This document shows, piece after piece, positions 5,274-57,214 of a stretch of 64,000 bases of DNA. Origin of the DNA: Frigoribacterium sp. PvP032 (GTDB lineage: Bacteria; Actinomycetota; Actinomycetes; Actinomycetales; Microbacteriaceae). The notes under the pieces are model-generated. The model worked only from the letters and a program-made list of their open reading frames with translations. It had not been told where the DNA came from and searched no databases. Made by a program: the position numbers and the translations under genes. Position 1 is the stretch's first letter. The number at the start of each line of letters is the position of its first letter. Location: assembly GCF_017833035.1 (NCBI RefSeq), contig NZ_JAFIBM010000001.1:434001-498000 (forward strand), read 5' to 3'.

Positions 5274-5283
5274 CCGCTCTCGG

Positions 5284-8078: not shown

Positions 8079-8090
8079 GAGGCGCCTCCT
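8077..8090. repeat. 14-bp palindrome of inverted AGGAGGCG octamers
   Basis: AGGAGGCGCCTCCT overlaps the stop codon of the AEC carrier gene, between it and the convergent exonuclease gene. It is the cleanest example of the octamer that recurs through this window. Confidence 0.8.
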
Positions 8091-8106
8091 CGGCTGGCAG
8101 GCCGGG

Positions 8107-8943: not shown

Positions 8944-9011
8944 GCCGACCACGCTACCGGCAGGAGGCGGACCCGGCCTGGGCGGAGCCTCCTGCCCTAC
9001 CATTGGTCACC

Positions 9012-9563: not shown

Positions 9564-12079
9564 GCGATGGCGACGACCGCCGCGGACGCGACGACGACGA
9601 GGAGGCGGGCCGCGACCCGGCCGCCGACACGTCGGGCCTCGACGCGGGCGACTGGCTCGCCGCGCAGTTCGACGACGACGCGGACGAGGCGGACGCGGAG
9701 GCCGACGCGGACGCAGAGGTCGACGCGGCTGACGAGGTCGATGCCGGTGCCGACGAGGTCGACGGGGGCTCCGACGGCGCCGGGCGACCCGAGCCGGTGA
9801 CGGCCGCGACGCCGATCTCGCCCGAGACGGTCAGCTCGCCGCCGTTCACCGTGCCGCCGGCCCCCACCGCCGAGTCGGACGTCGTCAAGAACTCGGGCCA
9901 CCCGATGGCGCTGGACCTCTCCGCGCTCGCCGGGGCCGTGCCCCCGCCGTCGACCGAGCCCACGCTGTCCGCCGAGCCGGTGCCGTCCGCCGATGAGGCC
10001 GAGGGTGACGAGCACGTCCCCGCCGAGGAGGCGGCACCTGCTGCCGAGCCCGCTGCGCCGCCGCGCCGTCAGGTGCCGCTCGCGGTCGCCCCGCGCCCCG
10101 TCGTGGCTCCTCCCGTCGAGCCGCCGCACGCACCCGCTGAGCCGGCAGCTGACGAGCACTCCGACGCTGTCGCCGCCGATGCGTCGGCGCACCCCGACGA
10201 GCCCGGCCCCTTCACGGCCCTGATCTCGCCTCCCGTCGCTCCGGAGCCCGTCTTCCCGTCGTCCTTCGACTGGAGCGCGCCGGCTGAGCCCGACGACCGG
10301 GGCGAGGGCATCGACCAGGCCGAGCACTCCCCGGACGACGACGACCTGGGCGCTGCCGAGATCGAGCCCGCCGAGGAGGCGCCCGTCACGTCGGACGAGG
10401 CTGCCGACGACGCGCAGACGCGCGCGTTCGACCTGCCGGCGGCCGAGGCCGAGCCCGAGCCTGAGGCCGAGCCCGAGCCCGAGGTCGAGGTCGAGGTCGA
10501 GCCTGAGCCCGAGCCCGAGCCCAAGCCCGAGGTCGAGATGCCCGCCTCGGAGCCAGAGGCAGCGGAGACTGCGGCTCAGCCGGAGCCCGCAGCTGAGCCG
10601 GAGCCCGCAGCTCAGCCGGAGCCTGCAGAGGAGCCGGAGCCGGAGCCGCCGTCCGCCGACGAGGCGACGACCCCGGAGCCCTGGTGGATCGCCGAGCACC
10701 ACGAGATGACTCGTCGTGAGCGCCGCGAGGCGGAGGCCGCCGGGGTCGTCGTGCCGCCCGCGGTCGCGGCCGAGCCGGACGGTGGCCCCGCCGCTGCGGG
10801 AGCCGACGACGTCGGCGACCAGAGCGGTGCCGGCACCGTCGCCGCGCCTCCTGCCGGGCTGCCGTTCGGTGCGCCGACGTCCGCGCCGCCCGCGTCCAGG
10901 CCGTCGGGCGTCGAGCAGGAGCCCACGTTCACCGAGCTGCTGGGAATCGTGCGTCCCTCGTCCGACACGCCCGAGACCGTCGAGGACACCCCGGGCGACC
11001 CGTCGGCCGACGCCGGTCGCAGCGACCTCGTGGACCCGGGGCCGCTGCCCACTGGCGGGTCCTGGGCGCTGAGCGACGAGCTGCCTGCGGAGGAGACCGC
11101 GGCCCGTGCGGGCGAGGAGCCGGTGACCGAGGCCGTCGCGCCGGTCGACGAACGGGCCGAGGAGCCGGTGGAGCCGGTCGATCTCGACGATCCCTTCGCC
11201 GCCCTCCGGGTCGAGGCCGAGGAGGACGCTCCGGACGCCGCCACGGCGGCGCTGCCCCTGGCCGGCGCCACGACGGCGACCCCGTCGGCCCCGGCTGCGG
11301 AACGACCCCGCTCTGCGTCGCACGGCGAGGGCGAGCTGCCCGGGCTGAGCGTCGGCGGGGCGTCGGCAGCGGTGCCGGCGACCGCCTCCTCGGCTGCCGC
11401 GCCCGCCGTGAGCCGAGGCGGTCAGTCGGCGTCGTCCGCGGCGTCGGGTCTCGGGACGGGCTCGTCCGCGACAGGGTCCGGGGGCGGCATCGCGTCGTGG
11501 TCTCGAGGCCGCAAGGTGCTGCTCGGCGTGGCCGCGGCACTCGTGATCGTCCTCGCTCTCGTCGCGCTCTTCGTCCTCAGCAGGTCGCTGTTCGCCGGCA
11601 CGCCGCAGCCGACCGAGGCCCCGGCTGCGGCCGTCGCCACCCGCACCGTCACCGCCGTGCCGGCCGAGGTCGCGCAGGAGGCGCCCGTCGGGCCGCTCGC
11701 CACGGGCACGCACCCGTGGAACGACCTGCTGGGAGGCGAGTGCTTCTCCGCATTCGAGAGTGCGTGGCAGCAGGACTACGAGGTCGTCGACTGCGGCCAG
11801 CCGCACGTCGCCCAGCTCGCGTCGATCGGTGCGCTCGACGCCGACCCGGCTGCGCCGTACCCGGGGAGCGACGCGCTGCAGTCGCAGATGTCCGTGCTCT
11901 GCACCGGGGCGAGCGCCCTCGACCTCGCGGCCGCTTCCACCTACCCCGACGCGCAGTTCAGCGCGAGCTGGCCGTCGACCGATGCCGAGTGGGCCGCCGG
12001 GGTCCGCTCGTACTGGTGCTTCGTCGACCGCGCCGGCGGCGAAGCGATGACGACCAGCGTGGCGCCGACCGCGGCCTGA
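9560..12079 (+). CDS. Large acidic membrane protein with C-terminal septum-formation-like domain
   Basis: 839 residues with GTG 9560 overlapping pyrE by 4 nt. Residues 1 to about 640 are low complexity, strongly acidic and Pro/Ala/Glu-rich, with EPEPEAEP-type repeats around 295-360, and are almost certainly disordered. One transmembrane helix (LLGVAAALVIVLALVALFVL) lies at about 653-673. The C-terminal ~130 residues contain WNDLLGGECFSAFESAWQQDY, VVDCGQPHVAQL, VLCTG and YWCFVDR. This is the spacing of cysteines and the CxxxH signature of actinobacterial septum-formation/DUF4190-associated extracytoplasmic domains. The predicted topology is a long cytoplasmic acidic tail, one helix and a small disulfide-bonded outer domain. 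A role at the septum or in the envelope is inferred from the domain only. Confidence 0.75.
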   Translation: MSDGDDRRGRDDDEEAGRDPAADTSGLDAGDWLAAQFDDDADEADAEADADAEVDAADEVDAGADEVDGGSDGAGRPEPVTAATPISPETVSSPPFTVPPAPTAESDVVKNSGHPMALDLSALAGAVPPPSTEPTLSAEPVPSADEAEGDEHVPAEEAAPAAEPAAPPRRQVPLAVAPRPVVAPPVEPPHAPAEPAADEHSDAVAADASAHPDEPGPFTALISPPVAPEPVFPSSFDWSAPAEPDDRGEGIDQAEHSPDDDDLGAAEIEPAEEAPVTSDEAADDAQTRAFDLPAAEAEPEPEAEPEPEVEVEVEPEPEPEPKPEVEMPASEPEAAETAAQPEPAAEPEPAAQPEPAEEPEPEPPSADEATTPEPWWIAEHHEMTRRERREAEAAGVVVPPAVAAEPDGGPAAAGADDVGDQSGAGTVAAPPAGLPFGAPTSAPPASRPSGVEQEPTFTELLGIVRPSSDTPETVEDTPGDPSADAGRSDLVDPGPLPTGGSWALSDELPAEETAARAGEEPVTEAVAPVDERAEEPVEPVDLDDPFAALRVEAEEDAPDAATAALPLAGATTATPSAPAAERPRSASHGEGELPGLSVGGASAAVPATASSAAAPAVSRGGQSASSAASGLGTGSSATGSGGGIASWSRGRKVLLGVAAALVIVLALVALFVLSRSLFAGTPQPTEAPAAAVATRTVTAVPAEVAQEAPVGPLATGTHPWNDLLGGECFSAFESAWQQDYEVVDCGQPHVAQLASIGALDADPAAPYPGSDALQSQMSVLCTGASALDLAAASTYPDAQFSASWPSTDAEWAAGVRSYWCFVDRAGGEAMTTSVAPTAA

Positions 12080-31854: not shown

Positions 31855-33048
31855 CTAGCCCCGAGCGCCCATGAGGTGCTCGAGCGCGAGCTGCTGCAGG
31901 CGGACGAACCCGTACCCGTGGCCGCCGAAGTGCTGCCCCGCGTCGTAGTCCTCGTACGAGGCGCGGTCGGCGAGCAGCTGCTCGTAGCCCTCGCCCTCGC
32001 CGAGCGTCGGCGTCGACAGCTCCGCGACCTGGGAGGCGGCCAGCGCCTCCTGCACGTCGGGGTCGGCACGGAACGCCTGGGCGCGCTCCTTCAGCAGCAG
32101 GTACATGCGCATGTTGGCGGCGGCGGAGTCCCACACGCCCGAGATGTCCTCGGTGCGCGACGGCTTGTAGTCGAAGTGGCGAGGGCCGTCGTAGGTCGGG
32201 CCGCCCTGGGGCGAGCCGTGCTCGAGCAGGTCGACGAGCGAGAACGCGTTCTGCAGGTCGCCGTGGCCGAAGACCAGGTCCTGGTCGTACTTGATGCCGC
32301 GCTGGCCGTTGAGGTCGATGTGGAAGAGCTTGCCCTGGTAGAGCGCCTGGGCGATGCCGGCCGTGAAGTTGAGGCCCGCCATCTGCTCGTGGCCGACCTC
32401 GGGGTTCACGCCCGCCATCTCGGGGTGCTCGAGCGTCTCGATGAACGCGATGGCGTGGCCGAGCGTCGGCAGCAGGATGTCGCCGCGGGGCTCGTTCGGC
32501 TTGGGCTCGATCGCGAAGCGCAGGTCGTAGCCCTTGTCGAGCACGTACTGCGAGAGCATGTCGACGCCCTCCTTGTAGCGGGACAGGGCCGCCTGCACGT
32601 CCTTGGCGGAGTCGTACTCGGCGCCCTCGCGGCCGCCCCACATGACGAAGGTCTTGGCGCCCAGCTCGGCGGCGAGGTCGATGTTGCGGAGCACCTTGCG
32701 GAGCGCGAAGCGGCGGACGCCGCGGTCGTTGGAGGTGAAGCCGCCGTCCTTGAAGACGGGCGCGCTGAAGAGGTTGGTCGTCACCATCGGCACGATGATG
32801 CCGGTCGCCTCGAGCGCGCCCTTGAGGCGGTCGATCTGCTTCTGGCGCTCCGCGTCGGTCGAGCCGAACGCGAAGAGGTCGTCGTCGTGGAAGGTCAGGC
32901 CGTAGGCGCCCAGGCGGTCAAGGTTCTCGACGGCCTCGACCACGTCGAGGTCGGGGCGGGTCGGCCCGCCGAACGGGTCGGCGCCGGTGTAGCCGATCGT
33001 CCAGAGTCCGAAGGAGAACTTGTCGTCGCGGGTGGGAGTGGTCGTCAT
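31855..33048 (-). CDS. xylA: Xylose isomerase
   Basis: 397-residue TIM-barrel enzyme that isomerises D-xylose to D-xylulose (also glucose to fructose), of the shorter class I type found in actinobacteria. The catalytic His54-Asp57 pair lies in [38 protein letters not shown] (metal-binding Glu), [11 protein letters not shown] (Glu and His ligands), [16 protein letters not shown] (Asp ligands) and HFDYKPSR (last Asp ligand) are all intact. ATG 33048 is set by the family N-terminus. Its promoter (TTGTGA-N17-TATGTT) overlaps a ROK-type operator. It diverges from the sugar transport and oxidoreductase operon. Confidence 0.96.
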
Positions 33049-33074
33049 GTCCGGGGTCCTCGTCGTCGAGAGCG

Positions 33075-33095
33075 TTTGTTGTCGTCTCCAACATA
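33075..33095. promoter_or_regulatory. XylR/ROK operator 1 (xylA)
   Basis: TTTGTTG, 7-base spacer, CAACATA: an interrupted palindrome of 7-7-7 form, the same as the sites at 33213 and 45085. It overlaps the xylA -10 (TATGTT on the minus strand, 33095-33090), so binding should block initiation. Confidence 0.75.
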
Positions 33096-33118
33096 TGCGT
33101 TCGGGCCGTCGATCACAA
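33090..33118 (-). promoter_or_regulatory. xylA promoter
   Basis: On the minus strand TTGTGA (33118-33113), 17 bases, TATGTT (33095-33090). It leaves a leader of about 35 nt before the xylA ATG. Confidence 0.65.
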
Positions 33119-33186
33119 GGGCCTGCCCGTCGCCCCTCCCCACCCTGCGCCAGGCGGCAGAGCATCCCTCATGACCATGGAGAGGG

Positions 33187-33215
33187 TTGCGCCCCGATCT
33201 GCCCGCGCCTACTTT
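33187..33215 (+). promoter_or_regulatory. Promoter of the oxidoreductase/transport operon
   Basis: TTGCGC (33187-33192), 17 bases, TACTTT (33210-33215). Its -10 is overlapped by operator 2. An SD (GAAGGAG) precedes the first gene. Confidence 0.6.
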
Positions 33216-33233
33216 GTTGTTGACCACAACGAA
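33213..33233. promoter_or_regulatory. XylR/ROK operator 2 (transport operon)
   Basis: TTTGTTG, 7-base spacer, CAACGAA. The arms are near-perfect inverted repeats in the same 7-7-7 form as operators 1 and 3. It covers the -10 to start-site region of the operon that begins at 33261. Confidence 0.8.
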
Positions 33234-33260
33234 TGTGGTGACGAATGACGAAGGAGTCAG

Positions 33261-34535
33261 ATGTCCCCCCACGAGACCCTGCACGAGACCCGACGCGACC
33301 TCGGCGTCGCCATGGTCGGCCACGGCTTCATGGGCGCCGCCCACTCGCAGGCCTGGCGCACGGTGCCCGCGTTCTTCGACCTGCCGCTCGCGCCGCGGAT
33401 GACCGCCATCGTCGGTCGCGACGCCGACGCGACCCGTGCCGCGGCGGCCCGGTGGGGCTGGGGCCGGGCCGAGTCCGACTGGAGGCGCGTGGTCGAGAGC
33501 GACGACGTCCAGCTCGTCGACATCTGCTCGCCCGGCTCGACGCACGTCGAGATCGCGGTCGCCGCCCTCGAGGCCGGCAAGCACGTGCTCTGCGAGAAGC
33601 CGCTCGCCAACACCGTGGCCGAGGCCGAGCTCATGGCCGAGGCCGCGGCCCGGGCCGCCGAGCGCGGCGTCCTCGCGATGGTCGGCTTCAGCTACCGCCG
33701 GGTGCCCGCCATCACCTTCGCCCGCGACCTCGTCGCGCGGGGCGCGATCGGGGAGCTGCGCCAGGTGCGGGCCCTCTACCTCCAGGACTGGCTGGTCGAC
33801 CCCGAGGGCCCGATGACCTGGCGCCTCGACAAGAGCGTGGCGGGCTCCGGCTCGCTCGGCGACATCGGCGCGCACCTCGTCGACGCCGTGCAGTTCGTCA
33901 CGGGCCGGGCGCTGACCGACGTCAGCGGCCTGCTGCACACGTTCACGACCGAGCGCCCCCTGCTCGGCGAGGTCCGCGGCCTCGGCGGCACCGCCTCCTC
34001 CGAGCGCGGGCAGGTCACGGTCGACGACGCGGCCCTCTTCACCGCGAAGATCGCAGGAGGCGCCCTCGCGACCTTCGAGGCCACCCGCGTCGCGACCGGC
34101 CGCAAGAACGCGCTGCGGCTCGAGTTCAGCGGCACGGGCGGCGCGATCGCCTTCGACCTCGAGCGGATGAACGAGCTCGAGGTCTACGACGCCGGCGCCC
34201 CGGTCGACCGGCTCGGCTTCCGGCGCGTGCTCGTCACTGAGCCGGATCACCCCTACACGGGCTCGTGGTGGCCGACCGGCCACGGCCTCGGCTACGAGCA
34301 CGCCTTCAGCCACCAGGCCCGCGACCTCGTCACCGCGATCGCCGCGGGGGAGCAGCCGACCCCCTCCTTCGCCGAGGGCCTCCAGGTGCAGCGCGTGCTC
34401 GACGCCGTCGAGCGCAGCGCCGCCGACGGCAGCCGCTGGCTCGCGACCGACCCGACCGAGCCGACCGACCCGGCCGACGCGACCGACCCGGCCGCGGCCA
34501 CCGCGGCGACAGCCCCGGCCGAGGCAGCCCGGTGA
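33261..34535 (+). CDS. Gfo/Idh/MocA family oxidoreductase 1
   Basis: 424-residue NAD(P)-dependent sugar oxidoreductase. The Rossmann domain begins LGVAMVGHGFMGAAHSQAW (GxGxxG variant, about 15-33), followed by VDICSPGSTHVEIAVAALEAGKHVLCEKPLANT with the family EKP motif (Lys near 115). The C-terminal beta-sheet domain carries GSLGDIGAHLVDAVQFVTG with the Asp/His catalytic region. The last ~30 residues are a Thr-Asp-Pro/Ala low-complexity tail. It is the first gene of the operon, 28 bp after operator 2, and its stop overlaps the binding-protein start by 4 nt. It likely oxidises or reduces a sugar or glycoside; the substrate is unknown. Confidence 0.9.
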   Translation: MSPHETLHETRRDLGVAMVGHGFMGAAHSQAWRTVPAFFDLPLAPRMTAIVGRDADATRAAAARWGWGRAESDWRRVVESDDVQLVDICSPGSTHVEIAVAALEAGKHVLCEKPLANTVAEAELMAEAAARAAERGVLAMVGFSYRRVPAITFARDLVARGAIGELRQVRALYLQDWLVDPEGPMTWRLDKSVAGSGSLGDIGAHLVDAVQFVTGRALTDVSGLLHTFTTERPLLGEVRGLGGTASSERGQVTVDDAALFTAKIAGGALATFEATRVATGRKNALRLEFSGTGGAIAFDLERMNELEVYDAGAPVDRLGFRRVLVTEPDHPYTGSWWPTGHGLGYEHAFSHQARDLVTAIAAGEQPTPSFAEGLQVQRVLDAVERSAADGSRWLATDPTEPTDPADATDPAAATAATAPAEAAR

Positions 34536-35743
34536 CCCGCCGACGCAAGAGCAGCCTCGGCCTCGCGGTCGCCGCCGTGACCGCCGTCGCGCTCACGGGC
34601 TGTGCGGTCGACACCTCGTCCCCTCCCGGCCACGTGTCGGTGCTCGACAGCTACGGCGACGGCAACGACAACGTCGTGATCGGCGCGACGCTCGAGGCCT
34701 GCGGCCGAGAGCTGGGCGTCACGATCGACCGCACCTCGGTGCCGGGGTCGTCGCTGATCCAGAAGACCCTGCAGCAGGCGTCGTCGAGGACGCTCCCCGA
34801 CGTGCTCATGCTCGACAACCCCGACCTGCAGCAGATCGCGGAGACGGGAGCGCTGTCGCCGCTGACCGACTACGGCATCTCGACCGAGGGCTACGCCGAC
34901 GGGGTGCTCGACGCGGGCACCTACGACGGCGAGGTCTACGGCCTCGCGCCCACGGTCAACACCATCGCCCTCTTCTACGACCGTGACGCGCTCGCCGCGG
35001 CGGGCATCGCCCCGCCGACCACCTGGGCCGAGCTGACCGAGGCTGCGGCGGAGCTGACCGAGGGCGACCGCTACGGGCTCGCCTTCGCGGCGCCCGCCGC
35101 CTACGAGGGCGCCTGGCAGTTCCTCCCCTTCATGTGGTCGAACGGAGGCGACGAGCGCGACATCGCCACCGACGGGACGGCCGAGGCACTCCAGCTGATG
35201 ACCGACTTCGTGGCCGACGGCTCGGCCTCGCGCAGCGTCGTGAACTGGACGCAGGCCGACGTCAACGACCAGTTCATGGCCGGCCGTGCGGCGATGATGG
35301 TCAACGGCCCCTGGCAGATCCCCGCCCTGCAGGCCGACAGCGACGTCGACTACGGGATCGCGACCCTGCCGGTGCCCGAGGCAGGCGACACCCCCGTCGC
35401 GCCCCTCGGCGGCGAGGTCTGGACGGTGCCCCGCACGGGCGACGCCGAGAAGCAGGCCCTCGCGGCGCAGGTCGTCGAGTGCCTCAACACCGACGAGAAC
35501 CAGCTCGACATGGCCACGAAGCGATTCACGATCCCCTCGAAGACCGCCGTCGCGACCGAGTTCGGCCAGCAGGTGCCCGAGGAGCAGGTCTTCGTCGACC
35601 TCGTCGCCGACGCCCGCGCCCGCACGGCCCAGCTGGGCGTCGAGTGGCCGACCCAGGCGACCAAGATCTACACCGCCGTGCAGTCCGCACTGACGGGGCA
35701 GGCGACTCCCTCACGTGCCCTCGAGAGAGCGGAGGAAGGCTGA
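34532..35743 (+). CDS. Sugar ABC transporter substrate-binding lipoprotein
   Basis: 403-residue extracytoplasmic solute-binding protein (family 1, MalE-like). GTG 34532 overlaps the previous stop (GTGA). A twin-Arg-like basic start RRRKSSLGLAVAAVTAVA leads to the lipobox LTGC, so the cysteine near residue 25 is lipidated. The mature domain has the usual motifs (LPDVLMLDNPDLQQIAETGAL, VYGLAPTVNTIALFYDRDAL, FMAGRAAMMVNGPWQI). It should deliver an oligosaccharide or glycoside to the two permeases encoded next. ROK control and neighbours suggest a xylose-containing or related sugar. Confidence 0.9.
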   Translation: MTRRRKSSLGLAVAAVTAVALTGCAVDTSSPPGHVSVLDSYGDGNDNVVIGATLEACGRELGVTIDRTSVPGSSLIQKTLQQASSRTLPDVLMLDNPDLQQIAETGALSPLTDYGISTEGYADGVLDAGTYDGEVYGLAPTVNTIALFYDRDALAAAGIAPPTTWAELTEAAAELTEGDRYGLAFAAPAAYEGAWQFLPFMWSNGGDERDIATDGTAEALQLMTDFVADGSASRSVVNWTQADVNDQFMAGRAAMMVNGPWQIPALQADSDVDYGIATLPVPEAGDTPVAPLGGEVWTVPRTGDAEKQALAAQVVECLNTDENQLDMATKRFTIPSKTAVATEFGQQVPEEQVFVDLVADARARTAQLGVEWPTQATKIYTAVQSALTGQATPSRALERAEEG

Positions 35744-35744
35744 G

Positions 35745-36737
35745 ATGGCGACCACCACGACCACGACCACCGCGCAGGAGGCGGTCCGCGCCTCCCGCAG
35801 CCGCTCCTCCGTCGGGGCCGCGTCGGCCCCCGCACCTGCCTCAACGCGTCGGCGCGGACGCCGCGAGCGCACCGCGCAGCTGATGTTCCTCGTCCCGGCG
35901 CTCGTCTACATGGTGCTGTTCTTCGGCTACCCCGTCGTGCAGAACGTCGTGATGGGGTTCCAGGCGTACACGACCAAGACCTTCTACACGGGCGAGGCCC
36001 CCTTCGTCGGGCTGCAGAACTACGTCGAGGTGCTCGGCAGCGCCGTCTTCGGCAGCGCGCTGCTCAACACGGCGCTCTTCACGGTCGGCTCGCTGGTGGG
36101 CCAGTTCGTGCTCGGCCTGGCGTTCGCGCTGTTCTTCCGCAACCGGTTCCCGCTGAACGGCGTGCTGCGCTCGCTGATGCTGCTGCCCTGGCTGCTGCCG
36201 CTGATCGTCTCCAGCGCCGTGTGGAAGTGGATCCTCGACCAGGACAGCGGGGTGCTGAACCAGTTCCTCACCGGCACAGGCCTGGTCGCAGACCCGGTGC
36301 CCTGGCTGAACAGCCCGTCGCTGGCGCTCGTGACCGTGATCGCCGTCAACATCTGGATCGGCATCCCGTTCAACATGACCATCCTCTACAGCGGGCTGCA
36401 GGGCATCCCCGACGAGCTGTACGAGGCAGGCTCGCTCGACGGCGCCACCCGCTGGCGCGCGTTCCGCCACATCACGTGGCCGCTGCTCAGGCCTGTCGTG
36501 ATGGTCGTCCTCGTGCTCGGCGTCGTCTACACGATCAAGGTGCTCGACATCATCCTCGGCCTCACCAACGGCGGGCCCGCGAACTCGACGGCGACCCTCG
36601 CGACCGAGTCGTACAAGCTCTCGTTCACGCAGTTCGACTTCGGGGCGGGCGCGGCGCTCAGCAACGTCCTCATCGTCATCTCGGCGGTGTTCGCGATCGT
36701 CTACCTCCGCCTCAACAGGAAGGCCGTCGATGACTGA
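35745..36737 (+). CDS. Sugar ABC transporter permease, MalF/UgpA type
   Basis: 330 residues with six membrane helices from about 45 on (LMFLVPALVYMVLFFGYPVV first). The EAA loop that docks the ATPase, ELYEAGSLDGATRWRAFRHITWPLLRP, lies near 225-250. ATG 35745 is chosen because GGAGGAAGG is ideally placed upstream, one base after the lipoprotein stop. The first 40 residues are a Thr/Ser/Arg-rich cytoplasmic tail. It pairs with the next permease, whose start it overlaps by 8 bp. Confidence 0.93.
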   Translation: MATTTTTTTAQEAVRASRSRSSVGAASAPAPASTRRRGRRERTAQLMFLVPALVYMVLFFGYPVVQNVVMGFQAYTTKTFYTGEAPFVGLQNYVEVLGSAVFGSALLNTALFTVGSLVGQFVLGLAFALFFRNRFPLNGVLRSLMLLPWLLPLIVSSAVWKWILDQDSGVLNQFLTGTGLVADPVPWLNSPSLALVTVIAVNIWIGIPFNMTILYSGLQGIPDELYEAGSLDGATRWRAFRHITWPLLRPVVMVVLVLGVVYTIKVLDIILGLTNGGPANSTATLATESYKLSFTQFDFGAGAALSNVLIVISAVFAIVYLRLNRKAVDD

Positions 36738-37602
36738 CGCGACCCTCTCGCCGACCCTCGTCGCCCGAGGCGGCGAGCCGCGCCTCCGGAAGCCCAGGGG
36801 CAGGCACGCCTGGGTGAACACGATCATCGGGGTCGTGCTGCTCGGCATCATGTTGTTCCCCGTCTACTGGATGGTCAACATCTCTCTCCAGCCGGCGGGT
36901 GCTGCGGTCGAGGCCGCCTGGTTCCCGTTCGAGGCGCAGCTCGGCGGGTACGCCACCGCGATCGCCGAGCAGTCCGGCAACCTGCTGACGAGCCTGCTCG
37001 TCGCGCTCGGCAGCGTCGTGCTCAGCCTCGCGATCGCGACGCCGGCCGCGTACGCCCTGGCACAGTTCCGCCTCCGGTACGTCGACGTCGTGCTGCTCGC
37101 GATCCTCGTCGCCCAGATGATCCCGGGCATCGTCGTCGCGAACGCGCTGTACTCGGCGTTCAACACGCTCGGCCTGCTCAACTCGATCGGCGGGCTGATC
37201 CTGGCCGACTCGACCGCGGGCATCCCGTTCGCGATCCTCATCATGCGGGCGTTCATGCTCGGCATCCCGCCGTCGATCATCGAGGCGGCCAAGGTCGACG
37301 GCGCCGGTGCCTTCAGGGCCTTCCGGTCGATCGTCGTCCCGATCTCGCGCGACGCCCTCATCACCGCCGGGCTGTTCACGTTCCTCTTCACCTGGAGCGA
37401 CTTCCTCTTCGGCCTCACGCTCACCACCACCGAGCAGGTCCGGCCGATCACCCTCGGCATCTACCAGTACATCGGCACGTACACGTCCGACTGGAGCACC
37501 GTCATGGCCACCGCCGTGCTGGCGTCCCTGCCGGCCATCGTGCTGCTCGTCGTCGCGCAGAAGTTCGTCGCGGCCGGGGCGACCGGCGGCGCCGTCAAGT
37601 AG
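36730..37602 (+). CDS. Sugar ABC transporter permease, MalG/UgpE type
   Basis: 290 residues with six helices. The first ([22 protein letters not shown]) ends with the family motif, and the EAA loop [28 protein letters not shown] lies near 180-206. It overlaps the MalF-type gene by 8 bp. No ATP-binding subunit is encoded in this operon or anywhere in the window, so the importer must borrow a shared MsiK/UgpC-like ATPase, as carbohydrate importers in actinobacteria often do. Confidence 0.93.
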
Positions 37603-37645
37603 CGACCCGACCCGACCCGATCCACAGAGAACAGAGAGAAGACCC

Positions 37646-38419
37646 ATGACCACCCCCACCACCCCGCTCCGCGTCACCGTCTGGGGCGAGAACCGCCACG
37701 AGCAGATCGAGCAGCACGTCGCCGAGCGCTACCCCACCGGCATGCACGGTGCGATCGCCGAGGGCATCGGCGAGAACCTGCCCGACGCGCAGATCACCGT
37801 CGCGACGATGGACATGCCCGAGCACGGCCTCACCGACGAGGCCCTGGAGCAGACCGACGTGCTCACCTGGTGGGGCCACGCCGCGCACGCCGAGGTGAGC
37901 GACGAGGTCGTCGAGCGGGTGCACCGCCACGTCCTCGCCGGCATGGGCCTGATCGTGCTGCACTCCGGCCACTGGTCGAAGATCTTCACGAAGCTGATGG
38001 GCACGACCTGCACCCTCCGCTGGCGCAGCGAGCACGACCAGGAGCTCGTCTGGACCGTCAACCCGCAGCACCCGATCACGCGCGGCGTGCCGAACCCGAT
38101 CGTGATCCCCGAACAGGAGATGTACGGCGAGTACTTCGACGTGCCGACCCCCGACGAGCTGATCTTCATCTCGGGCTTCACGGGCGGCGAGGTGTTCCGC
38201 AGCGGCATGACCTACCGGCGCGGCTTCGGCAAGGTCTTCTTCTTCAGCCCCGGCGACCAGGACTTCCCCGTCTACCACCACCGCGACGTCCGCCGCGTGA
38301 TCGCGAACGGCGTCGAGTGGGCGCGCCCCGAGCGCGAGCGCGAGACGCCGACGCTGCTGCGCTACGAGAGCGGCCAGTACTTCCAGGGCGCCGACTACGA
38401 AGGGGCGCTCGAGCGATGA
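37646..38419 (+). CDS. ThuA-like protein 1 (trehalose-utilisation family)
   Basis: 257 residues with a class I glutamine amidotransferase-like fold and the ThuA pattern. [12 protein letters not shown] at the N-terminus, [77 protein letters not shown] and [21 protein letters not shown] are all visible, but the amidotransferase triad is not. ThuA proteins act with Gfo/Idh enzymes on 3-keto-glycosides in rhizobial trehalose and sucrose use. It follows the permease by 43 bp with SD AGAGAGAAG and overlaps the next oxidoreductase by 4 nt. Confidence 0.87.
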
Positions 38420-39594
38420 CGTTCCGCACGGTCGACAGCCGAGGAGGCGCGCTGCGCGTCGTCCAGGTCGGCGCGGGAGGCATGGGGCGGGCCTGGCTCC
38501 GCGCGCTCGCCGACAGCGCGGACGTCGAGCTGGTCGGCGTCGTCGACCTCGACCTCGACGCCGCCAGGGCGGGCGCCGAGCACCACGGCGACGCCTCGCT
38601 GCCCGTCTCGACCGACCTCGGCGCGATGGTGGCCGACCTCGCGCCCGACGCGGTGGTCGACGTGACGGTGCCGGTGGCCCACCACCCCGTCACGACGCAG
38701 TCGCTGTTCGCGGGCCTGCCCGTACTCGGCGAGAAGCCGGTCGCGCTCGACGTGGCCGAGGGCCTCTCGCTCGCGGCCGCCGCCGAGGTGACGGGCGAGC
38801 TGTTCATGGTCAGCCAGTCGCGTCGCTACGACGACCACCTGGTCGCCCTCAAGCAGCAGATCGGCCAGCTCGAGACGGTCGGGGCCGTGACGACGGAGTT
38901 CTTCAAGGCCCCGCACTTCGGCGGCTTCCGCGAGCAGATGGACGACGTGCTGCTGCTCGACATGGCCGTGCACCCGTTCGACTCGGTGCGCTGGCTGCTC
39001 GACGCCGACCCGGTGTCGGTCTGGTGCGAGTCGTTCAGCCCGGCATGGAGCTGGTACCGCGGCGACGCCGCCGCGAACGCCGTCTTCGAGTTCGAGGGCG
39101 GGGTCCGGTACGCGTACTCGGGCAGCTGGTGCAGCCCGGGCGCCGAGACCTCGTGGAACGGCTCGTGGCGCGTCAGCGGCTCGGCCGGCACCGCGCTCTG
39201 GGACGGCGACGAGGCTCCCGTGCTCTCCCTCGCGGACGAGACCGGCGCCTCCTCGTCGCCTCAGCTGCCGCAGCTGCCGACCGTCGGCGACGGCATCGAG
39301 GGGTCGCTCGCGGCCTTCGTCGGCGCCCTGCGCACCGGCGCCGTGCCGCACGGCGAGGTGCACGAGAACGTGATGAGCCTGGCGATGGTCGAGGCGGCGA
39401 TCGAGTCGACCCGCACCGGGCAGCGGGTCGTGATCGACGACCTGCTCGAGCGGGCGCTCGCGACGGCGATCGAACGGGAGGCGCGCGACGACGTCCGCGC
39501 CCGGCTCGAGTCGTGGACGTCGGTGCGTGCGGCCCTGCAGGCCGGGCCGACGACGGCGGCGACGACCTCGGCGACGACGGCGGCGAGCTCGTGA
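38416..39594 (+). CDS. Gfo/Idh/MocA family oxidoreductase 2
   Basis: 392 residues. The Rossmann start [19 protein letters not shown] (about 13-31) is followed by [23 protein letters not shown] with the EKP lysine, and [13 protein letters not shown]. The C-terminal catalytic domain includes [22 protein letters not shown] (Asp/His pair). A Thr/Ala-rich tail ends the protein. It is coupled by 4-nt overlaps to ThuA-like 1 upstream and ThuA-like 2 downstream. It is clearly different in sequence from oxidoreductases 1 and 3, suggesting a separate step on the same or a related sugar. Confidence 0.9.
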
Positions 39595-40283
39595 CGCGCC
39601 GGGCGCTGGTGGTCCGCGGCGGCTGGGAGGGCCACGACCCGATCGGCACGACCGACTCGTTCGTGCCGTTCCTCGAGCGGTCGGGCTTCGAGGTCAGCCT
39701 GCACGACGGCCCGGCGGTCTACGCCGACGCCGACGTGATGCGCACCGCTGACCTCGTGCTGCAGAACGTCACGATGTCGACGATCGAGGGCGCGCAGACC
39801 GCGGGGCTCCGCGCGGCCGTCGAGGCGGGCACCGGCCTGGCGGGCTGGCACGGCGGCATCGCGGACTCGTTCCGCGGCGACGCCGACTACCTGCACCTGA
39901 TCGGCGGGCAGTTCGCCGCACATCCCGGCAAGGCCGCGGCCGACCGGGTCGGCGACGAGACTGACGGCTTCGTGCGGCACGCGATCCGCTTCACCGAGGC
40001 GGCCGCGTCGCACCCGGTCACCGAGGGCCTCGACGACTTCGAGGTCGAGAGCGAGCAGTACTGGCTGCTGCACGACGACTACCTCGACGTGCTCGCGACG
40101 ACCACGCAGGAGGCGCGGGCCGGCGACCCCTGGACGCGCCCGGTGACCTCCCCCGCCGTCTGGACCCGCCAGTGGGGACTCGGCCGCATCGCGGTCGTCA
40201 CCCCGGGGCACTCGCAGGCCGTGCTCGACCACCCGACCGTCCGCACGCTCGTCGAGCGCGGCCTGCTGTGGGCCTCGCGATGA
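39591..40283 (+). CDS. ThuA-like protein 2
   Basis: 230 residues with a ThuA/class I amidotransferase-like fold. ALVVRGGWEGHDPIGTTDSF at the start, DLVLQNVTMSTIEGAQTAGLRAAVEAGTGLAGWHGGIADSFRG as the nucleophile-elbow region (residues about 54-96), HLIGGQFAAHPG, FEVESEQYWLLHDD and GRIAVVTPGHSQAVLDHPTV. It is shorter and more typical of stand-alone ThuA domains than protein 1. GTG 39591 overlaps the previous stop by 4 nt, and its own stop overlaps the third oxidoreductase. Having two ThuA proteins in one operon is unusual to my knowledge. Confidence 0.82.
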   Translation: MTRRALVVRGGWEGHDPIGTTDSFVPFLERSGFEVSLHDGPAVYADADVMRTADLVLQNVTMSTIEGAQTAGLRAAVEAGTGLAGWHGGIADSFRGDADYLHLIGGQFAAHPGKAAADRVGDETDGFVRHAIRFTEAAASHPVTEGLDDFEVESEQYWLLHDDYLDVLATTTQEARAGDPWTRPVTSPAVWTRQWGLGRIAVVTPGHSQAVLDHPTVRTLVERGLLWASR

Positions 40284-41389
40284 GCGGCACGGGCACGGTC
40301 CCGATGCGCGTCGGCGTCGTCGGCGTGGGCGTGATCAGCGAGCAGTACTTCGCCTCGTTCGGGCGGCTGCCCGGCCTCGCCCTCGAGGCCGTGGCCGACC
40401 TCGACCAGGCGCGGGCCGCCTCCGTCGCGGACCGTCTCGGCGTGCGGGCCCTCACCGTCGACGAGCTGCTCGCCGACGACCGGGTCGACGTCGTGCTCAA
40501 CCTCACGATCCCGGCGGCGCACGCCGAGATCGCGCTACGGGCGATCGCCGCCGGCAAGCACGTCTACGGCGAGAAGCCGCTCGCTCTCACGGTCGCCGAC
40601 GGCACGGCGGTGCTCGAGGCGGCCAGGGCGGCCGGCGTGCGGGTGGGCTCGGCGCCGGACACGGTGCTCGGCACCGGGGTGCAGACCGCCGCGCAGCTCG
40701 TCGCCTCGGGAGCGGTCGGCGAGCCCGTCGGCGCCGCCGTCTCGTGGACCGCGTCCGGCCACGAGGCCTGGCACCCTGCGCCGGACTTCTACTACCGGGC
40801 AGGAGGCGGCCCCCTCTTCGACATGGGCCCCTACTACCTGACGACGCTCGTGCACCTGCTCGGCCCGGTCGTCTCGGTGTCCGGCCTGGTCTCGCGCTCG
40901 ACCCGGCGCCGCACGATCGGCACCGGTCCCCGTGCCGGCGAGCAGCTCGAGGTCGACGTCGACACGCACGCGAGCGCGCTGCTGCGGCACGACTCTGGAG
41001 CGACGTCGACCGTGACGGTGAGCTTCGAGGTGTGGGGATCGCGGGCGCCGATCACGGAGTTCTACGGCACGCTCGGCACGATCGCCGTCCCCGACGCCAA
41101 CATGTTCGGCGACCCCGTCGAGCTGCTGACCGCCGACGACCGCACCTGGCGCGCGGTCCCGCCGACCGCGGGCTACCGCGACGCCGGACGCGGGTACGGC
41201 CTGGCCGACCTCGCCAGGGCGGTCGCCTCGGGGGAGCCGCACCGCGCCTCCGGCGACGTCGCCCTGCACGTGCTCGAGATCACGGAGGCGGTGGCCGCGT
41301 CGAGCGCCTCCGGCACCGTCGTGACGCTGGTCACGCGTCCGGAGGTGCCGCGGGTGGTGCCGCTCGGCGCCGAGCCGCACCTCGCGTGA
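40280..41389 (+). CDS. Gfo/Idh/MocA family oxidoreductase 3
   Basis: 369 residues. MRVGVVGVGVISEQYFASFGRL (about 9-30) is the NAD(P) fold, followed by VVLNLTIPAAHAEIALRAIAAGKHVYGEKPLALT (EKP lysine near 98). The catalytic domain has DFYYRAGGGPLFDMGPYYLTTLVHLLGP with the conserved D-x3-Y region. This GGPLFDMGPYYL pattern is typical of inositol- or glucose-fructose-oxidoreductase-like enzymes acting on free sugars or glycosides. ATG 40280 overlaps the ThuA-like 2 stop. It is the last catabolic gene before the ROK regulator, 34 bp away. Confidence 0.9.
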   Translation: MSGTGTVPMRVGVVGVGVISEQYFASFGRLPGLALEAVADLDQARAASVADRLGVRALTVDELLADDRVDVVLNLTIPAAHAEIALRAIAAGKHVYGEKPLALTVADGTAVLEAARAAGVRVGSAPDTVLGTGVQTAAQLVASGAVGEPVGAAVSWTASGHEAWHPAPDFYYRAGGGPLFDMGPYYLTTLVHLLGPVVSVSGLVSRSTRRRTIGTGPRAGEQLEVDVDTHASALLRHDSGATSTVTVSFEVWGSRAPITEFYGTLGTIAVPDANMFGDPVELLTADDRTWRAVPPTAGYRDAGRGYGLADLARAVASGEPHRASGDVALHVLEITEAVAASSASGTVVTLVTRPEVPRVVPLGAEPHLA

Positions 41390-41423
41390 CCGCCCCGATA
41401 GCCTGGTGACCAGGGAGGCCGCG

Positions 41424-42671
41424 GTGCAGGACGAGGCGAATGGCAGGACAGGCGCTCTGGCGACGGCGCTGCCCGATGCAGGAGGCGCCCCTCCCGCCGG
41501 TCGCGCCCGCCCCCTCCTCGACCGCCCTCGCGGCTCGAACCTCTCCACGGTGCTCGGCATCGTGCACGGCGCCGGACCGACCTCTCGCAGCGAGCTGACG
41601 CGCCTGACCGGCCTCAACCGCTCGACCATCGCCGCCCTCGTGGGCGAGCTCGTCGAGCGCGGCCTCGCCGTCGAGTCGGAGCCCGTCGCGGCCAACCGGG
41701 TCGGCCGCCCCAGCCCGGTCGTCAGCGCCTCACCTGATGTCGTGGCCTTCGCAGTGAACCCTGAGATCGACGCCGTGACCGTCGGCCGGGTCGGGCTCGA
41801 CGGGGTCGTGCAGCGCAGGGTCCGGCACGAGACCGACGGCGTGCCCACGGCGCTCGAGGCGGCCGAGATCGCGGCCCGCCTCGTCCGGGAGCTCGTCGAC
41901 GAGGTGCCCGCAGCCCGGGTCGTCGGCGTCGGCGCCGCCGTGCCGGGCCTCGTGCACGCGGACGGCGGCCTCGTCCGGCTCGCGCCGCACCTCGGCTGGG
42001 TCGACGAGCCGTTCGCGCGCCTCCTGTCAGACGCCACCGGCCTGCCCGCCCGGGCCGCCAACGACGCGAGCACCGCCGTCGTCGCCGAGGGCCTCTTCGG
42101 CGCCGGCGCCGGGGCGAGCGACCTCGTGTTCCTCAACGGAGGCGCGAGCGGCGTCGGCGGGGGAGTGGTCGTCGACGGCCACCCCCTGCGCGGCCGCGAC
42201 GGCTTCGCCGGCGAGATCGGCCACACGCTCGTCGAGTCGGCCGGGCGGCTCTGCCACTGCGGCGCCGTCGGCTGCCTCGAGACCGAGGTCGGCCAGGCGG
42301 AGCTGCTGACCGTCACCGGCCTGTCCCGCGCCCAGGCCGACGAGCTCGACGCCGCGCTCGCGACGGCGCTCGCCGAGGGCGACGCCGACGTGCGGCGCGA
42401 GGTCGAGCGGCAGGTCGACTACGTGGCGGTCGCGCTCCGCAACGTGCTCAACGCCTTCAACCCGTCGGTGATCGTGCTCGGCGGGTTCCTCGGGTCGCTG
42501 CAGGCCGCGGCGCCGGACCGGCTGCTCGACCGCGTGACCGCACAGGCGCTGCCCGGGCCGCGCGACGGCGTGCAGCTGCGACGTGCCGCGCTCGGCGCCG
42601 ACCGGCTGATGATCGGGGCCGCGGAGCTGGCGTTCGCCGACCTCCTGGCCGACCCGGCCCGCGCCTCCTGA
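41424..42671 (+). CDS. ROK family transcriptional repressor (XylR-like)
   Basis: 415 residues. An N-terminal winged helix-turn-helix (TSRSELTRLTGLNRSTIAALVGELVERGLAVE, about 50-82) is fused to a ROK sugar-kinase-like domain with VGVGAAVPGLV, NGGASGVGGGVVVDG (phosphate-binding region) and the zinc-site CHCGAVGCLE motif (about 278-287), all intact. GTG 41424 has AGGGAGG 5 bases upstream; another GTG at 41406 lacks an SD. It is the best candidate to bind the three TTTGTYG-N7-CAACRWA sites and release them when xylose or a related sugar is present. No such site is seen before its own gene, so it may be read from the operon. Confidence 0.9.
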   Translation: MQDEANGRTGALATALPDAGGAPPAGRARPLLDRPRGSNLSTVLGIVHGAGPTSRSELTRLTGLNRSTIAALVGELVERGLAVESEPVAANRVGRPSPVVSASPDVVAFAVNPEIDAVTVGRVGLDGVVQRRVRHETDGVPTALEAAEIAARLVRELVDEVPAARVVGVGAAVPGLVHADGGLVRLAPHLGWVDEPFARLLSDATGLPARAANDASTAVVAEGLFGAGAGASDLVFLNGGASGVGGGVVVDGHPLRGRDGFAGEIGHTLVESAGRLCHCGAVGCLETEVGQAELLTVTGLSRAQADELDAALATALAEGDADVRREVERQVDYVAVALRNVLNAFNPSVIVLGGFLGSLQAAAPDRLLDRVTAQALPGPRDGVQLRRAALGADRLMIGAAELAFADLLADPARAS

Positions 42672-42678
42672 CCCGGCG

Positions 42679-43395
42679 TCAGGCGGAGGCGGCCGCCGCG
42701 TGCCCGTGCTCGTCGCGCGTCGCCCAGACGGCGACCGCGGCCGGCCCGGCGAGGTCGACCGTGCCGTCGTCGAGCTCGACCCGCAGCGACCCCGCGTAGT
42801 CGCGGCGCTCGGCGACCCTGACGTGCGCGCCGACCCGCAGCTGCAGCGAGCCGAGGTAGCGGAGCAGCTCGGGCTCGTCGTCCGAGACGCGGACCACGTG
42901 GCCGCACTCGCCCTCGACGAACTCCTGCAGCGTGTGGGCGACGGGCCGCACGACGGTGCCGTCGGCCTGCGGGATCGGGTCGCCGTGCGGGTCCGCCGTG
43001 GGGCGCCCCAGCTCGACGTCGAAGGCCTCGAGCAGGCGGTCGCTGACGGCGTGCTCGAGCACCTCGGCCTCGTCGTGCACCTCGTCCCACGCGTAGCCGA
43101 GCCGCTCGACGAGGTACGTCTCGATCAGGCGGTGGCGGCGCACCATGCCGACGGCGACGTGCCGGCCGAGCTCGCTCAGCGCGATGCTGCGGTACGGCGT
43201 GTAGTCGATGAACCCGTCGCGCTCGAGCTTGCGGAGGTTGCCCGACACCGTCGACGCGCCCACCCCGAGCGTCGCCGCGATCTCGTTCGTCGTGATGCCG
43301 GGGGAGCCCTCTGCCGCCCACTCCTCGGCCTTCCAGATGACCTTGAGGTAGTCCTCGGTCATCGTCGAGCGGGTGGGTCCCGGTTCCGGTGGCAT
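42679..43395 (-). CDS. DtxR/MntR-family metal-dependent repressor
   Basis: 238 residues. The N-terminal winged helix (ITTNEIAATLGVGASTVSGNLRKLERDGFIDY), the helical dimer/metal domain (RHRLIETYLVERLGYAWDEVHDEAEVLEHAVSD) and the C-terminal FeoA/SH3-like domain (LRVGAHVRVAERRDYAGSL) are in order. In IdeR/DtxR the metal-site motif is HEEACxxEH; here the cysteine is replaced by glutamate (HDEAEVLEH), as in manganese-sensing MntR. I therefore favour MntR. ATG 43395 has TAGGAT 6 bases upstream, so the mRNA is probably leaderless. It is convergent with the ROK gene and has no obvious link to sugar use. Confidence 0.88.
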   Translation of the reverse strand: MPPEPGPTRSTMTEDYLKVIWKAEEWAAEGSPGITTNEIAATLGVGASTVSGNLRKLERDGFIDYTPYRSIALSELGRHVAVGMVRRHRLIETYLVERLGYAWDEVHDEAEVLEHAVSDRLLEAFDVELGRPTADPHGDPIPQADGTVVRPVAHTLQEFVEGECGHVVRVSDDEPELLRYLGSLQLRVGAHVRVAERRDYAGSLRVELDDGTVDLAGPAAVAVWATRDEHGHAAAASA

Positions 43396-43603
43396 GTCCC
43401 GATCCTAGGTCCCGCCTCCTGCGCCCCCACGCCCCTGCGCCCCCTCGTGCGCCCCCTCCTGCGCGTCCCGTCCGTCGAGGGCGGGTCGTCGTGCTCGAGG
43501 GCGGGTCGCCGCGGACCCGCCCTCGACCACTCTGACCCGCCCTCGACCGACAGCAGCGTGCAGCGTGCGCCGCAGGGCCGCGGCGTGCGGCTCAGCGCGG
43601 CGC
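43396..43603. repeat. Spacer with doubled inverted repeat
   Basis: No gene. Two direct copies of TCGAGGGCGGGTC (43475-43487, 43495-43507) are followed by two copies of the complement GACCCGCCCTCGA (43514-43526, 43534-43546). Two nested or alternative stems can form. An inverted AGGAGGCG octamer lies at 43413-43420. It is downstream of xylB and upstream of mntR, both on the minus strand, so it could end xylB transcription. Confidence 0.82.
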
Positions 43604-45076
43604 TCAGCGCGGCAGCGACCCCAGCGCCTGGGCCGCCCGGTAGCGCTCGCCGATCGCGGGCACGAGGTCCGGCTCCGAGGAGGCGCGGGTCGACACCGCC
43701 CACCCCGGTCGCGTCCCGGAGAGGGCCCAGGCCGCCTGCCGTGCCGCACCGTCCGCGACGTACTCGCCCGGCGCGGGCACCGTCACCGGCACGTCGAGCA
43801 CCTGGGCCGCGACGGCCTGCACGGCCGGGTTCAGCGCGGCGCCGCCGATCAGCAGCACGCGCCGCACCTCCACCCCCTGGTCGCGCACGGCGGCGGCACC
43901 GTCGGCGAGGGCGGACAGCATCCCCTCGACGGCAGCCCTCGCGAGGTTCTCGCGGGTGGTCGAGGCGAGCGTCAGCCCCGAGAGCGTCGCCGTCGCGTCG
44001 GGCAGGTCGGGCGTGCGCTCGCCCTCGAAGTACGGCACGAGCGAGACCCCGCCGGCACCGGGCTCCGCGGCGAGCGCGAGCCGGGCGAACTCGTCGTGGT
44101 CGACGCCGAGCAGCGTGCCGACCGACGACAGCACGCGGGCTGCGTTGAGGGTGGCGACGAGCGGCAGGAACCCGCCGGCCGCGTCGGCGAACCCGGCGAC
44201 CGTGCCCGAGCCGTCGCGGACGGGCGCGTCCGTCACGGCGAACGCCGTCCCGCTGGTCCCGATGCTGATGACGAGGTCGCCGACGCCGGCGTCCAGCCCG
44301 AGGGCCGCGCCGGCGTTGTCGCCGGCGCCCGCCCCGACCAGGACCCCCTCGGGGACCGGCCCGTGCGCGACCGTCGTGCCTGCCGCCTCCGACGGTCCCA
44401 GCACCCGCGGCAGCACGACGGCGTCGCCGGAACCGGCCCCCGCGGTCGCTTCCCGCCCGGCCCGCCCGAGCGCCCGCTCGAACAGCTCCAGGTCGTACGC
44501 CTCGTCGCCCGGGCTCCAGTACGAGGTGCCGCTGGCGTCGCTGCGGTCGGTGACGAGCGCCTCCAGGTCGGGGCCGAGCGGCGAGGAGGCGGCGGGCCCG
44601 TGCCCGAGGAGCCGCCAGGTCAGCCAGTCGTGCGGCAGCGCCACCGCGGCGACGCGTGCCGCGTTCGCGGGCTCGGCGTCGCGCAGCCAGCGCAGCTTCG
44701 TGGCCGTGAAGGAGGCGACGGGCACCGAGCCGGTCCGTCGCGCCCACTCCTCGGCCCCGAGCTCGGCGGTCAGGTCGCGTGCGGCGGGGGCGCTGCGGGT
44801 GTCGTTCCAGAGCAGCGCGTCGCGTACGACCACGCCGTCGGAGTCGAGCACGACCATGCCGTGCTGCTGCCCGGCGACCGAGATCGCGGCGACGTCGTCG
44901 AGGCCGCCGGCCGCGTCGATCGCCTCGACGAGGGCGTCCCACCAGGCGTCGGGCGGCACCTCGGTGCCCTCCGGGTGCCGGGCGGTGCCCTGGCGCACCA
45001 GCTCTCCGGTGACGGTGTCGCGGATCACGACCTTGCAACTCTGGGTCGAGGAGTCGACCCCGGCGACGAGACTCAT
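43604..45076 (-). CDS. xylB: Xylulokinase
   Basis: 490-residue FGGY-family kinase that phosphorylates D-xylulose with ATP, following XylA. It starts [17 protein letters not shown] (phosphate 1 motif), with [11 protein letters not shown] (substrate-contact motif), LLWNDTRS, the catalytic Asp region [16 protein letters not shown] near 248, the second FGGY-type block [10 protein letters not shown] and the adenosine motif [17 protein letters not shown] near 402. ATG 45076 is set by the family N-terminus. Operator 3 ends 9 bp upstream of it. It lies 12 kb from xylA but shares the regulator site. Confidence 0.95.
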
Positions 45077-45084
45077 GGCCGTAG

Positions 45085-45105
45085 TTTGTCGTATCGCGCA
45101 ACGAA
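45085..45105. promoter_or_regulatory. XylR/ROK operator 3 (xylB)
   Basis: TTTGTCG, 7-base spacer, CAACGAA, the same 7-7-7 form as operators 1 and 2. It lies 9 bp upstream of the xylB ATG, a repressing position. Confidence 0.75.
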
Positions 45106-56577: not shown

Positions 56578-57214
56578 TCGAGGGCCAGGGTCGCGCCCGT
56601 CACCATGCCCTGGGATGCCCTGTGCCGGGCGCTGACGGCCGATCGGGCCCTGGAACCTTGATTTTCCGGGGATCCGCGTTGCGACACGCCCGGGATGTGG
56701 CAGGGTTTGGACGATGTGGCTGGTGTGCCTGTAATGTTTCCTCTTGTCACCACGGAGGTGCGGCGGAGCGAAGCTTCACCGGCCTTCTTGTGACACTGAC
56801 CTCCAAGTCCTCGAGTTGCTGCTGGTTCTGCTAGCTGGCCTCGGACCAAGTGGGTTGCGAACACTGATCCAGATGGTGTAGCGTCATGGCTCGTCGTGAG
56901 AACGGCACCGGCTCTCAGGAGTCGAAGAGCGATGGTCTTGCAACTGGAAGATCGGTGCTAAGGTTTCACAGCCGCTCCGGGCGATGGTCTTATATGAGAT
57001 CGGGTCTCTGATGCGTTTGGTCCTTGAGAACTCAACAGCGTGCACATTGTCAAATGCCAAATTATACCCTGGCATTGTCGGCGGCTTCGGTCGCTGATGG
57101 TGTTTAGGTTTCTTTGAGATTGACGGACAATCAACAATCGTCAGATTGTTTTGTTCTTTCAGTCAGCATCAAATTCAGCAGTTATCACCTTTTTCCGGTG
57201 GTTCTGTTTTTTCT
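56578..57214 (+). other. rRNA operon upstream and leader region
   Basis: 637 bp with no gene. It falls in GC from the YeiH end to the AT-rich leader. It contains the promoter at 56707-56735, a weaker second candidate (TTGCGA at 56855, TGTAGC at 56877), and CCTTGAGAACTCAACAGCGT (57022 on), a typical actinobacterial pre-rRNA leader sequence. A related TTTTGAGAACTACACAGTGG lies in the spacer (59037). Confidence 0.75.
56707..56735 (+). promoter_or_regulatory. rRNA operon promoter P1
   Basis: TTGGAC (56707-56712), 17 bases, TGTAAT (56730-56735). The start would be near 56742, about 470 nt before 16S. The match and spacing are strong for a stable-RNA promoter. Confidence 0.7.

Follow-up and report, generated by a model that had tools for sequence, protein, structure and literature searches.

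Known xylose repressors and the xylose locus of Frigoribacterium sp. PvP032

Repressors of the ROK family that control xylose utilization are known from several bacteria, and a candidate regulon of this kind is described here in a 64,000-nucleotide stretch (the window, positions 434001-498000 of contig NZ_JAFIBM010000001.1) of the complete 3.33 Mb genome of Frigoribacterium sp. PvP032, where putative operators stand at xylA, at xylB and at an oxidoreductase/ThuA operon ending in a ROK gene. In Bacillus and Paenibacillus, as far as the available parts of the papers describe it, XylR belongs, like the regulator proposed here, to the ROK family and represses xylA and xylB, binding DNA without xylose, and the Firmicutes regulons include transporters too, but the operator differs (TTNGTTT-AAACNAA for B. 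subtilis, GTTT-N7-AAAC) (PMC9104551, PMC2873477). Streptomyces XylR is an actinobacterial repressor of a xyl operon, although xylA is divergent from xylB-xylR in the arrangement given by the accessible part of PMC6149001.

For XylR of Mycobacterium smegmatis, the accessible part of PMC10138657 reports a promoter region shared with the xylose cluster Ms6021-18 (MSMEG_6021 being XylA), inhibition of DNA binding by D-xylose and a footprint, CATCTTATGTTCGTCGAGAGAACAAAATA, which has the same TATGTT-N9-AACAAA core as the sites described here and scores 29.3 on the weight matrix described below. The locus described here differs in that its regulator gene is the last of a long oxidoreductase/ThuA operon and in that a separate site precedes xylB. 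As for the operon, the Thu system, according to the available part of its description, also brings together sugar transport, ThuA and the oxidoreductase ThuB for assimilation through 3-keto derivatives, whereas the window has two ThuA and three oxidoreductase genes, XylR-type operators and no ATPase gene in the operon. The levoglucosan pathway (lgdA, lgdB1, lgdC) likewise joins Gfo-family dehydrogenases with an ATP-binding cassette (ABC) transporter cassette, but the window operon contains two ThuA genes and no PF01261 gene, and ThuA is never mentioned in the accessible text of that paper (PMC10066097).

The window genes, whose families were taken from Pfam and NCBIfam profile matches of the proteins, are ordered as xylA on the minus strand, then gfo1, sbp, perm1, perm2, thuA1, gfo2, thuA2, gfo3 and the ROK gene on the plus strand, an mntR-like gene and xylB on the minus strand, and purA on the plus strand. 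The ROK protein encoded at 41406 is very probably a XylR repressor, whose repression of xylA, of its own operon, of xylB and of a distant ChvE-type transporter would be relieved by xylose, an effector taken from the mycobacterial relative, and whose operon would handle a xylose-containing glycoside; the particular substrate and chemistry, a xyloside and a 3-keto route, are put forward tentatively, at a little under even chances. The regulon itself has good support and belongs to a known kind, with a relative in mycobacteria. Three features are new: the displaced xylB, which carries an operator of its own, the fourth site far away, and the Gfo/ThuA operon, one module nested in the other, that stands under the same switch. 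A literature search that covered few subscription papers returned no paper pairing XylR with Microbacteriaceae and, among the titles and opening lines of abstracts listed, none linking ThuA to a XylR regulon. The locus offers a concrete and testable XylR regulon for this family, and since the Gfo/ThuA operon, so far uncharacterised, falls under the xylose switch, fewer substrates need be considered for it.

Operator sequences in the window and in the genome

Three sequences with 7-7-7 spacing, read in the initial annotation as ROK operators, are present at the genes it had assigned to them: operator 1 (33075..33095) at xylA, operator 2 (33213..33233) at the oxidoreductase/ThuA/ROK operon and operator 3 (45085..45105) at xylB. 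All three are imperfect palindromes with the shared core TWTGTT-N9-AACAWA, and the seventh letters (G...C) of the motif first proposed, TTYGTYG-N7-CAACRAA, vary among xylA sites. With at most one mismatch that motif matches the three operators and nowhere else in the window, and with at most three it gives 31 matches on both strands compared with a shuffle mean of 9.0, the other matches being mostly GC-rich. It had been recommended for scanning genomes, for which it proved a poor probe, with 390 matches per strand at up to two mismatches (control 39) when CRACRAA is used as right half. For the core pattern TWTGTY-N9-RACRWA the 3.33 Mb genome has four exact matches, namely the three window operators and 1630307-1630327, and with one mismatch allowed at 23 forward and 28 reverse positions compared with 4 and 6 in the controls.

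A weight matrix was built from 27 xylA-upstream sites, Frigoribacterium loci being left out. Among 63,980 window positions it ranks operator 1 first (27.3), operator 2 second (22.7) and operator 3 fourth (11.7); operator 1 is orthologous to the training set, and operators 2 and 3 are not. The third-ranked position (57150-57170, score 12.7) lies in an AT-rich leader directly before the 16S rRNA gene and was taken as probably due to chance. In the 934 kb of 49 ROK loci, scores of at least 18 were obtained at 52 positions, 27 from the training set and 25 new, against none in the reversed sequence, and scores of at least 11 at 70 positions against 2.

The xylA operator and its promoter

The xylA gene (31855..33048, minus strand) encodes a xylose isomerase (NCBIfam TIGR02631, 645.5 bits, cut-off 447). 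From 80 ROK-related loci and the window, 34 regions upstream of xylA could be placed, and TATGTT-N9-AACAAA with at most two mismatches is found in 32 of them, all except L018 and L057, compared with 0.11 on average, and never more than 1, in 200 letter shuffles. Absence of the sites from relatives had been named by the initial annotation as one result that would contradict it. Conservation was found instead: before xylA in these regions, before the oxidoreductase operon in loci L009 and L010 with a weaker site (12.1) in genome G110, and before xylB in four of seven Frigoribacterium strains, or four of six if PhB160 and G035, which give identical coordinates in the alpha-xylosidase search, are one genome, as is probable.

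The promoter-side half has an A at position 2 (TATGTT or TAAGTT) in 31 of the 32 xylA sites, and the far half has at the mirror position an A, not the T that a palindrome requires, in 30 of 32. A hexamer matching TTGACA in at least 4/6 letters lies 16-18 bp upstream in 20 of the 32 sites, compared with 9.8% at shifted anchors. In the window, positions 33090-33095 read TATGTT on the minus strand, the likely -10 of xylA, and TTGTGA (33113-33118, minus strand) stands 17 bp before it. From these aligned sites, on which the promoter reading is based, one operator half probably doubles as the -10 box at xylA, which would explain both the asymmetry of the palindrome and the mode of action of the repressor; this is suggested for Microbacteriaceae, Micrococcaceae and Mycobacteriaceae loci. 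Of the two -10 overlaps claimed earlier, the one at xylA is likely, and for operator 2 the -10 is a possible one: by eye, the operator overlaps TACTTT (33210-33215), with TTGCGC (33187-33192) at a 17-bp spacer and a possible ribosome-binding site, GAAGGAG (33250-33256), also by eye.

In Arthrobacter and relatives (L019, L021, L024-L026, L034, L042), a second site is located at least 100 bp upstream of the xylA site. The divergent gene near it resembles, by eye, what we take to be an alditol (xylitol) oxidase.

The ROK protein as candidate XylR

The regulator gene is the last of the operon (41406..42671, plus strand; Pfam ROK PF00480, 148.9 bits, cut-off 22.9), about 8.4 kb from xylA and 0.9 kb from xylB. 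Its product is 90-92% identical to the ROK proteins of Frigoribacterium sp. ACAM 257 and PhB116 and 45-49% identical to those of eight other Mycobacteriaceae loci, M. smegmatis XylR standing outside that alignment. The protein can be aligned with the repressor Mlc (1z6r) from its residue 38 onwards and has an N-terminal helix-turn-helix; its segment TGLNRSTIAALVGEL is well conserved among its kin, and Pfam MarR_2 reaches 24.5 bits, below the cut-off of 27.

Co-occurrence of sites and this ROK type (matches at E<=1e-60) was analysed in 150 genomes of the family. Strict sites number 79, in 61 genomes, and the ROK type is present in 111; both are found in 59 genomes, the site only in 2, the ROK only in 52 and neither in 37 (Fisher p = 1.8e-8, for genomes that are related and hence not independent draws), while the reversed-pattern control gave 11 matches in 9 of the 150. 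For 56 of the 75 sites listed of the 79, a ROK homologue is found no more than 15 kb away, with about 0.7 expected, and for 22 the distance is within 1 kb. These associations, together with the published mycobacterial XylR footprint, support the ROK as ligand of the sites, as had been proposed at the outset, and the protein encoded at 41406 is best read as XylR, predicted to control its own operon via operator 2.

In a tree of 103 homologues and 4 own-paralogue rows (two of them identical), in which some rows are same-genome copies (e.g. L018/L226 and L050/L237), the window ROK belongs to a 52-row clade (98/99) together with the site-flanked, xylA-adjacent L038, L056 and L075. This tree gives no single XylR clade that could be recognised by its adjacency to xylA.

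A distant fourth operator and the moved xylB

The regulon is not limited to the 12 kb first assigned to it. The fourth exact core site, 1630307-1630327, is located about 1.16 Mb from the other three and 155 bp before a substrate-binding protein gene, whose product reaches 468.2 bits with ChvE NF040907, above the equivalog cut-off of 460, and 199 bits with TIGR02634 xylF, below the cut-off. The two genes after it resemble an ATPase and a permease by eye, and site and gene are kept in G110 and G035 (L137, L138), the two genomes of the same genus that the family sample contains. In relatives, high-scoring sites were also seen before a gene resembling a GH10-type xylanase by eye (L134, 1501-1521) and before an alpha-xylosidase gene (L035, 7539-7559), which may widen the regulon there.

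Outside Frigoribacterium, xylB lies directly behind xylA on the same strand, with a gap of 4-259 bp, in 45 of 46 rows (L051 being the exception), and the 300 bp upstream of xylB give only negative matrix scores in every one of the 46 rows. In Frigoribacterium the gene is found beyond the ROK and mntR-like genes. The window xylB (43604..45076, minus strand) matches the xylulokinase family TIGR01312 with 378.3 bits, slightly below the cut-off of 380.25, and operator 3 ends 8 bp, not 9 bp as initially annotated, before its ATG (45074-45076). The own genome, PhB116, Leaf263 and G110 share a site at this distance. From these comparisons xylB, having left the xylA operon, seems to have gained its own operator in Frigoribacterium.

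The oxidoreductase/ThuA operon

The operon starts with gfo1 (33261..34535), which is followed on the same plus strand by genes for an ABC sugar-binding protein (sbp, 34532..35743; Pfam SBP_bac_8, 157.9 bits), two ABC permeases (perm1, 35745..36737, and perm2, 36730..37602; both Pfam BPD_transp_1), a ThuA-domain protein (thuA1, 37652..38419; Pfam PF06283, 117.9 bits; PDB 1t0b), an oxidoreductase (gfo2, 38419..39594), a second ThuA-domain protein (thuA2, 39588..40283; PF06283, 143.2 bits) and a third oxidoreductase (gfo3, 40283..41389), gfo1 to gfo3 all being of the Gfo/Idh/MocA family. ThuA domains thus stand beside Gfo/Idh/MocA oxidoreductases and sugar ABC transporter genes, as in a Thu-type module. 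Among 123 loci inspected, many of them short, module A (gfo1-thuA2-gfo3) is intact in 16, two pairs of which each come from one genome, and module B (sbp-perm1-perm2-thuA1-gfo2) is intact in 6 including the window, where module B (34532-39594) is inserted between gfo1 and thuA2 of module A. PhB116 and ACAM 257 have no sbp, perm1 or perm2 at the module B position. The nearest named NCBIfam family of gfo1 is levoglucosan dehydrogenase NF052479 (360.8 bits), an identity that was rejected as the score is far below the equivalog cut-off of 650. In five loci (L016, L154, L163, L166, L177) gfo1 and xylA are divergent around a site.

In PhB160 and Leaf263 (L013 and L014, about 3000-11200), the slot between xylA and ROK is occupied by genes for a LacI-type regulator (assigned by eye), a sugar transporter made up of a binding protein and two permeases, and an alpha-xylosidase, which reaches 1145 bits in PhB160 (cut-off 606) and is 87% identical to it in Leaf263; among 90 loci, 25 have a homologue of the PhB160 enzyme, a count that contains two overlapping pairs. 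Sites scoring at least 18 precede the binding-protein gene of alpha-xylosidase operons in L015, L216, L217, L221 and L222, a ROK from the 52-row clade lying at the opposite end in each case (for L217, on the overlapping L218), and these operons are the main reason for suspecting xylosides. PvP032 itself has a LacI-linked operon at 0.89 Mb (887627-896479, L256) in which an alpha-xylosidase gene is combined with those of a binding protein and two permeases; a one-mismatch pattern match near that alpha-xylosidase gene, at 893932, was dropped for its matrix score of 0.4. Consequently, the idea that the Gfo/ThuA cassette replaces a missing alpha-xylosidase was rejected for PvP032. Among ten genomes searched, no alpha-xylosidase over the cut-off was found in G110, G103 and G087, and ACAM 257 and PhB116 have Gfo/ThuA genes together with an alpha-xylosidase. 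It is conceivable, though less likely than not, that the Frigoribacterium slot between the xylA operator and ROK is exchangeable under XylR-type operators, with a hydrolytic alpha-xylosidase in PhB160 and Leaf263 versus Gfo/ThuA in PvP032, the latter cassette being a hydrolase-free oxidative means of releasing xylose from a xyloside.

Alternative explanations

Several observations weigh against the proposed regulon, and they are given here together with the alternatives they may favour. On the promoter side, a -35 match is absent in 12 of the 32 xylA sites, a sigma-70 consensus promoter scan of 33040-33270 gave no match and no -35 was seen by eye at the ChvE site; operator 3 is weak, and the xylB site is missing in ACAM 257, PhB160 and G035, where a different sequence precedes xylB (in PhB160, a gene with a sugar-binding regulator domain). 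Hundreds of two-mismatch matches to the loose initial motif would agree with chance matches in a GC-rich genome, but a chance origin was rejected on the genome-wide count and the controls and is left with a practically negligible probability, as the exact core sites are only four genome-wide, all before sugar genes, the xylA site is conserved and none of the reversed positions compares with the 25 non-training ones. It is also improbable that the operators are real but bound mainly by another ROK paralogue or a second regulator, the window ROK sensing a xyloside or other sugar for its own operon. The own genome does give 14 ROK-domain match rows, some of them fragments of a single gene, and in many relatives two ROK paralogues occur close to the motif, so that by sequence either could be the ligand; in G008, G028 and G055 the paralogue most similar to the window ROK (58-63%) is beside an alpha-xylosidase gene and a more distant one (~50-51%) is nearest the strict site. 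Moreover, 52 of the 111 ROK genomes have no strict site, G005 and G027 have one without a ROK match, and neighbour labels are mixed across the ROK tree, xylA adjacency requiring at least 10 changes. Nevertheless, the window ROK itself is the only match of its type in the own genome at E<=1e-60, its operon has an operator with the identical motif, and these sites also precede the alpha-xylosidase operons that neighbour ROKs of its clade.

Granted that the ROK encoded at 41406 is XylR, it could control xylA, xylB and the transporter, with the oxidoreductase/ThuA operon included only as the divergent neighbour of xylA and acting on an anhydrosugar or other glycoside instead of a xyloside, a serious possibility even if we lean away from it. 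The best NCBIfam match of gfo1 points in that direction, and a site of at least 15 within about 300 bp before gfo1 is found in 7 of 30 fetched loci (of 95 matches) and is lacking in 23; gfo1 in G055 (L221) also has no site in front. Of the 95 gfo1 matches, 34 have a gene of the window ROK type no more than 15 kb away and 61 do not, and the separate alpha-xylosidase operon of the own genome has no XylR-type site (best score 0.4). On the other hand, the window operon has its own second site, retained in relatives as described, and G028 and G103 have moderate sites (15.8 and 16.3) immediately upstream of gfo1, at a distance of several kb from that of xylA, with another (21.8 and 21.3) before ROK, while gfo1 falls far short of the levoglucosan dehydrogenase cut-off. 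The first claim, that the oxidoreductase/ThuA genes are linked to xylose, has support at the window locus, but a good site directly in front is lacking in 23 of the 30 homologous loci fetched.

Proposed mode of regulation

Taken together, the sites and the known XylR systems suggest that, without xylose, the ROK protein would bind TWTGTT-N9-AACAWA over the likely -10 elements of xylA and of the operon that ends in its own gene, as well as 8 bp before the xylB start codon and before the ChvE-type transporter about 1.16 Mb off, and would thereby block RNA polymerase. Xylose would free the DNA of the repressor; uptake, isomerase and kinase would then be induced jointly with the oxidoreductase/ThuA operon, and the position of the repressor gene at the operon end would create negative feedback. 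The operon itself would most likely import a xylose-containing glycoside and open it via a 3-keto sugar in a Thu-like manner, the released xylose being passed to XylA and XylB.

Further observations on the gfo genes

Strong sites (26.6) were seen about 1.4 kb upstream of gfo1 in G120 and G050 (L168 4086 and L169 4125), with another gene lying in between. Finally, gfo3 has a Tyr (DMGPY) at the position where gfo1 has a His (DIGAH), which we take to be within the catalytic motif of the Gfo/Idh/MocA family.

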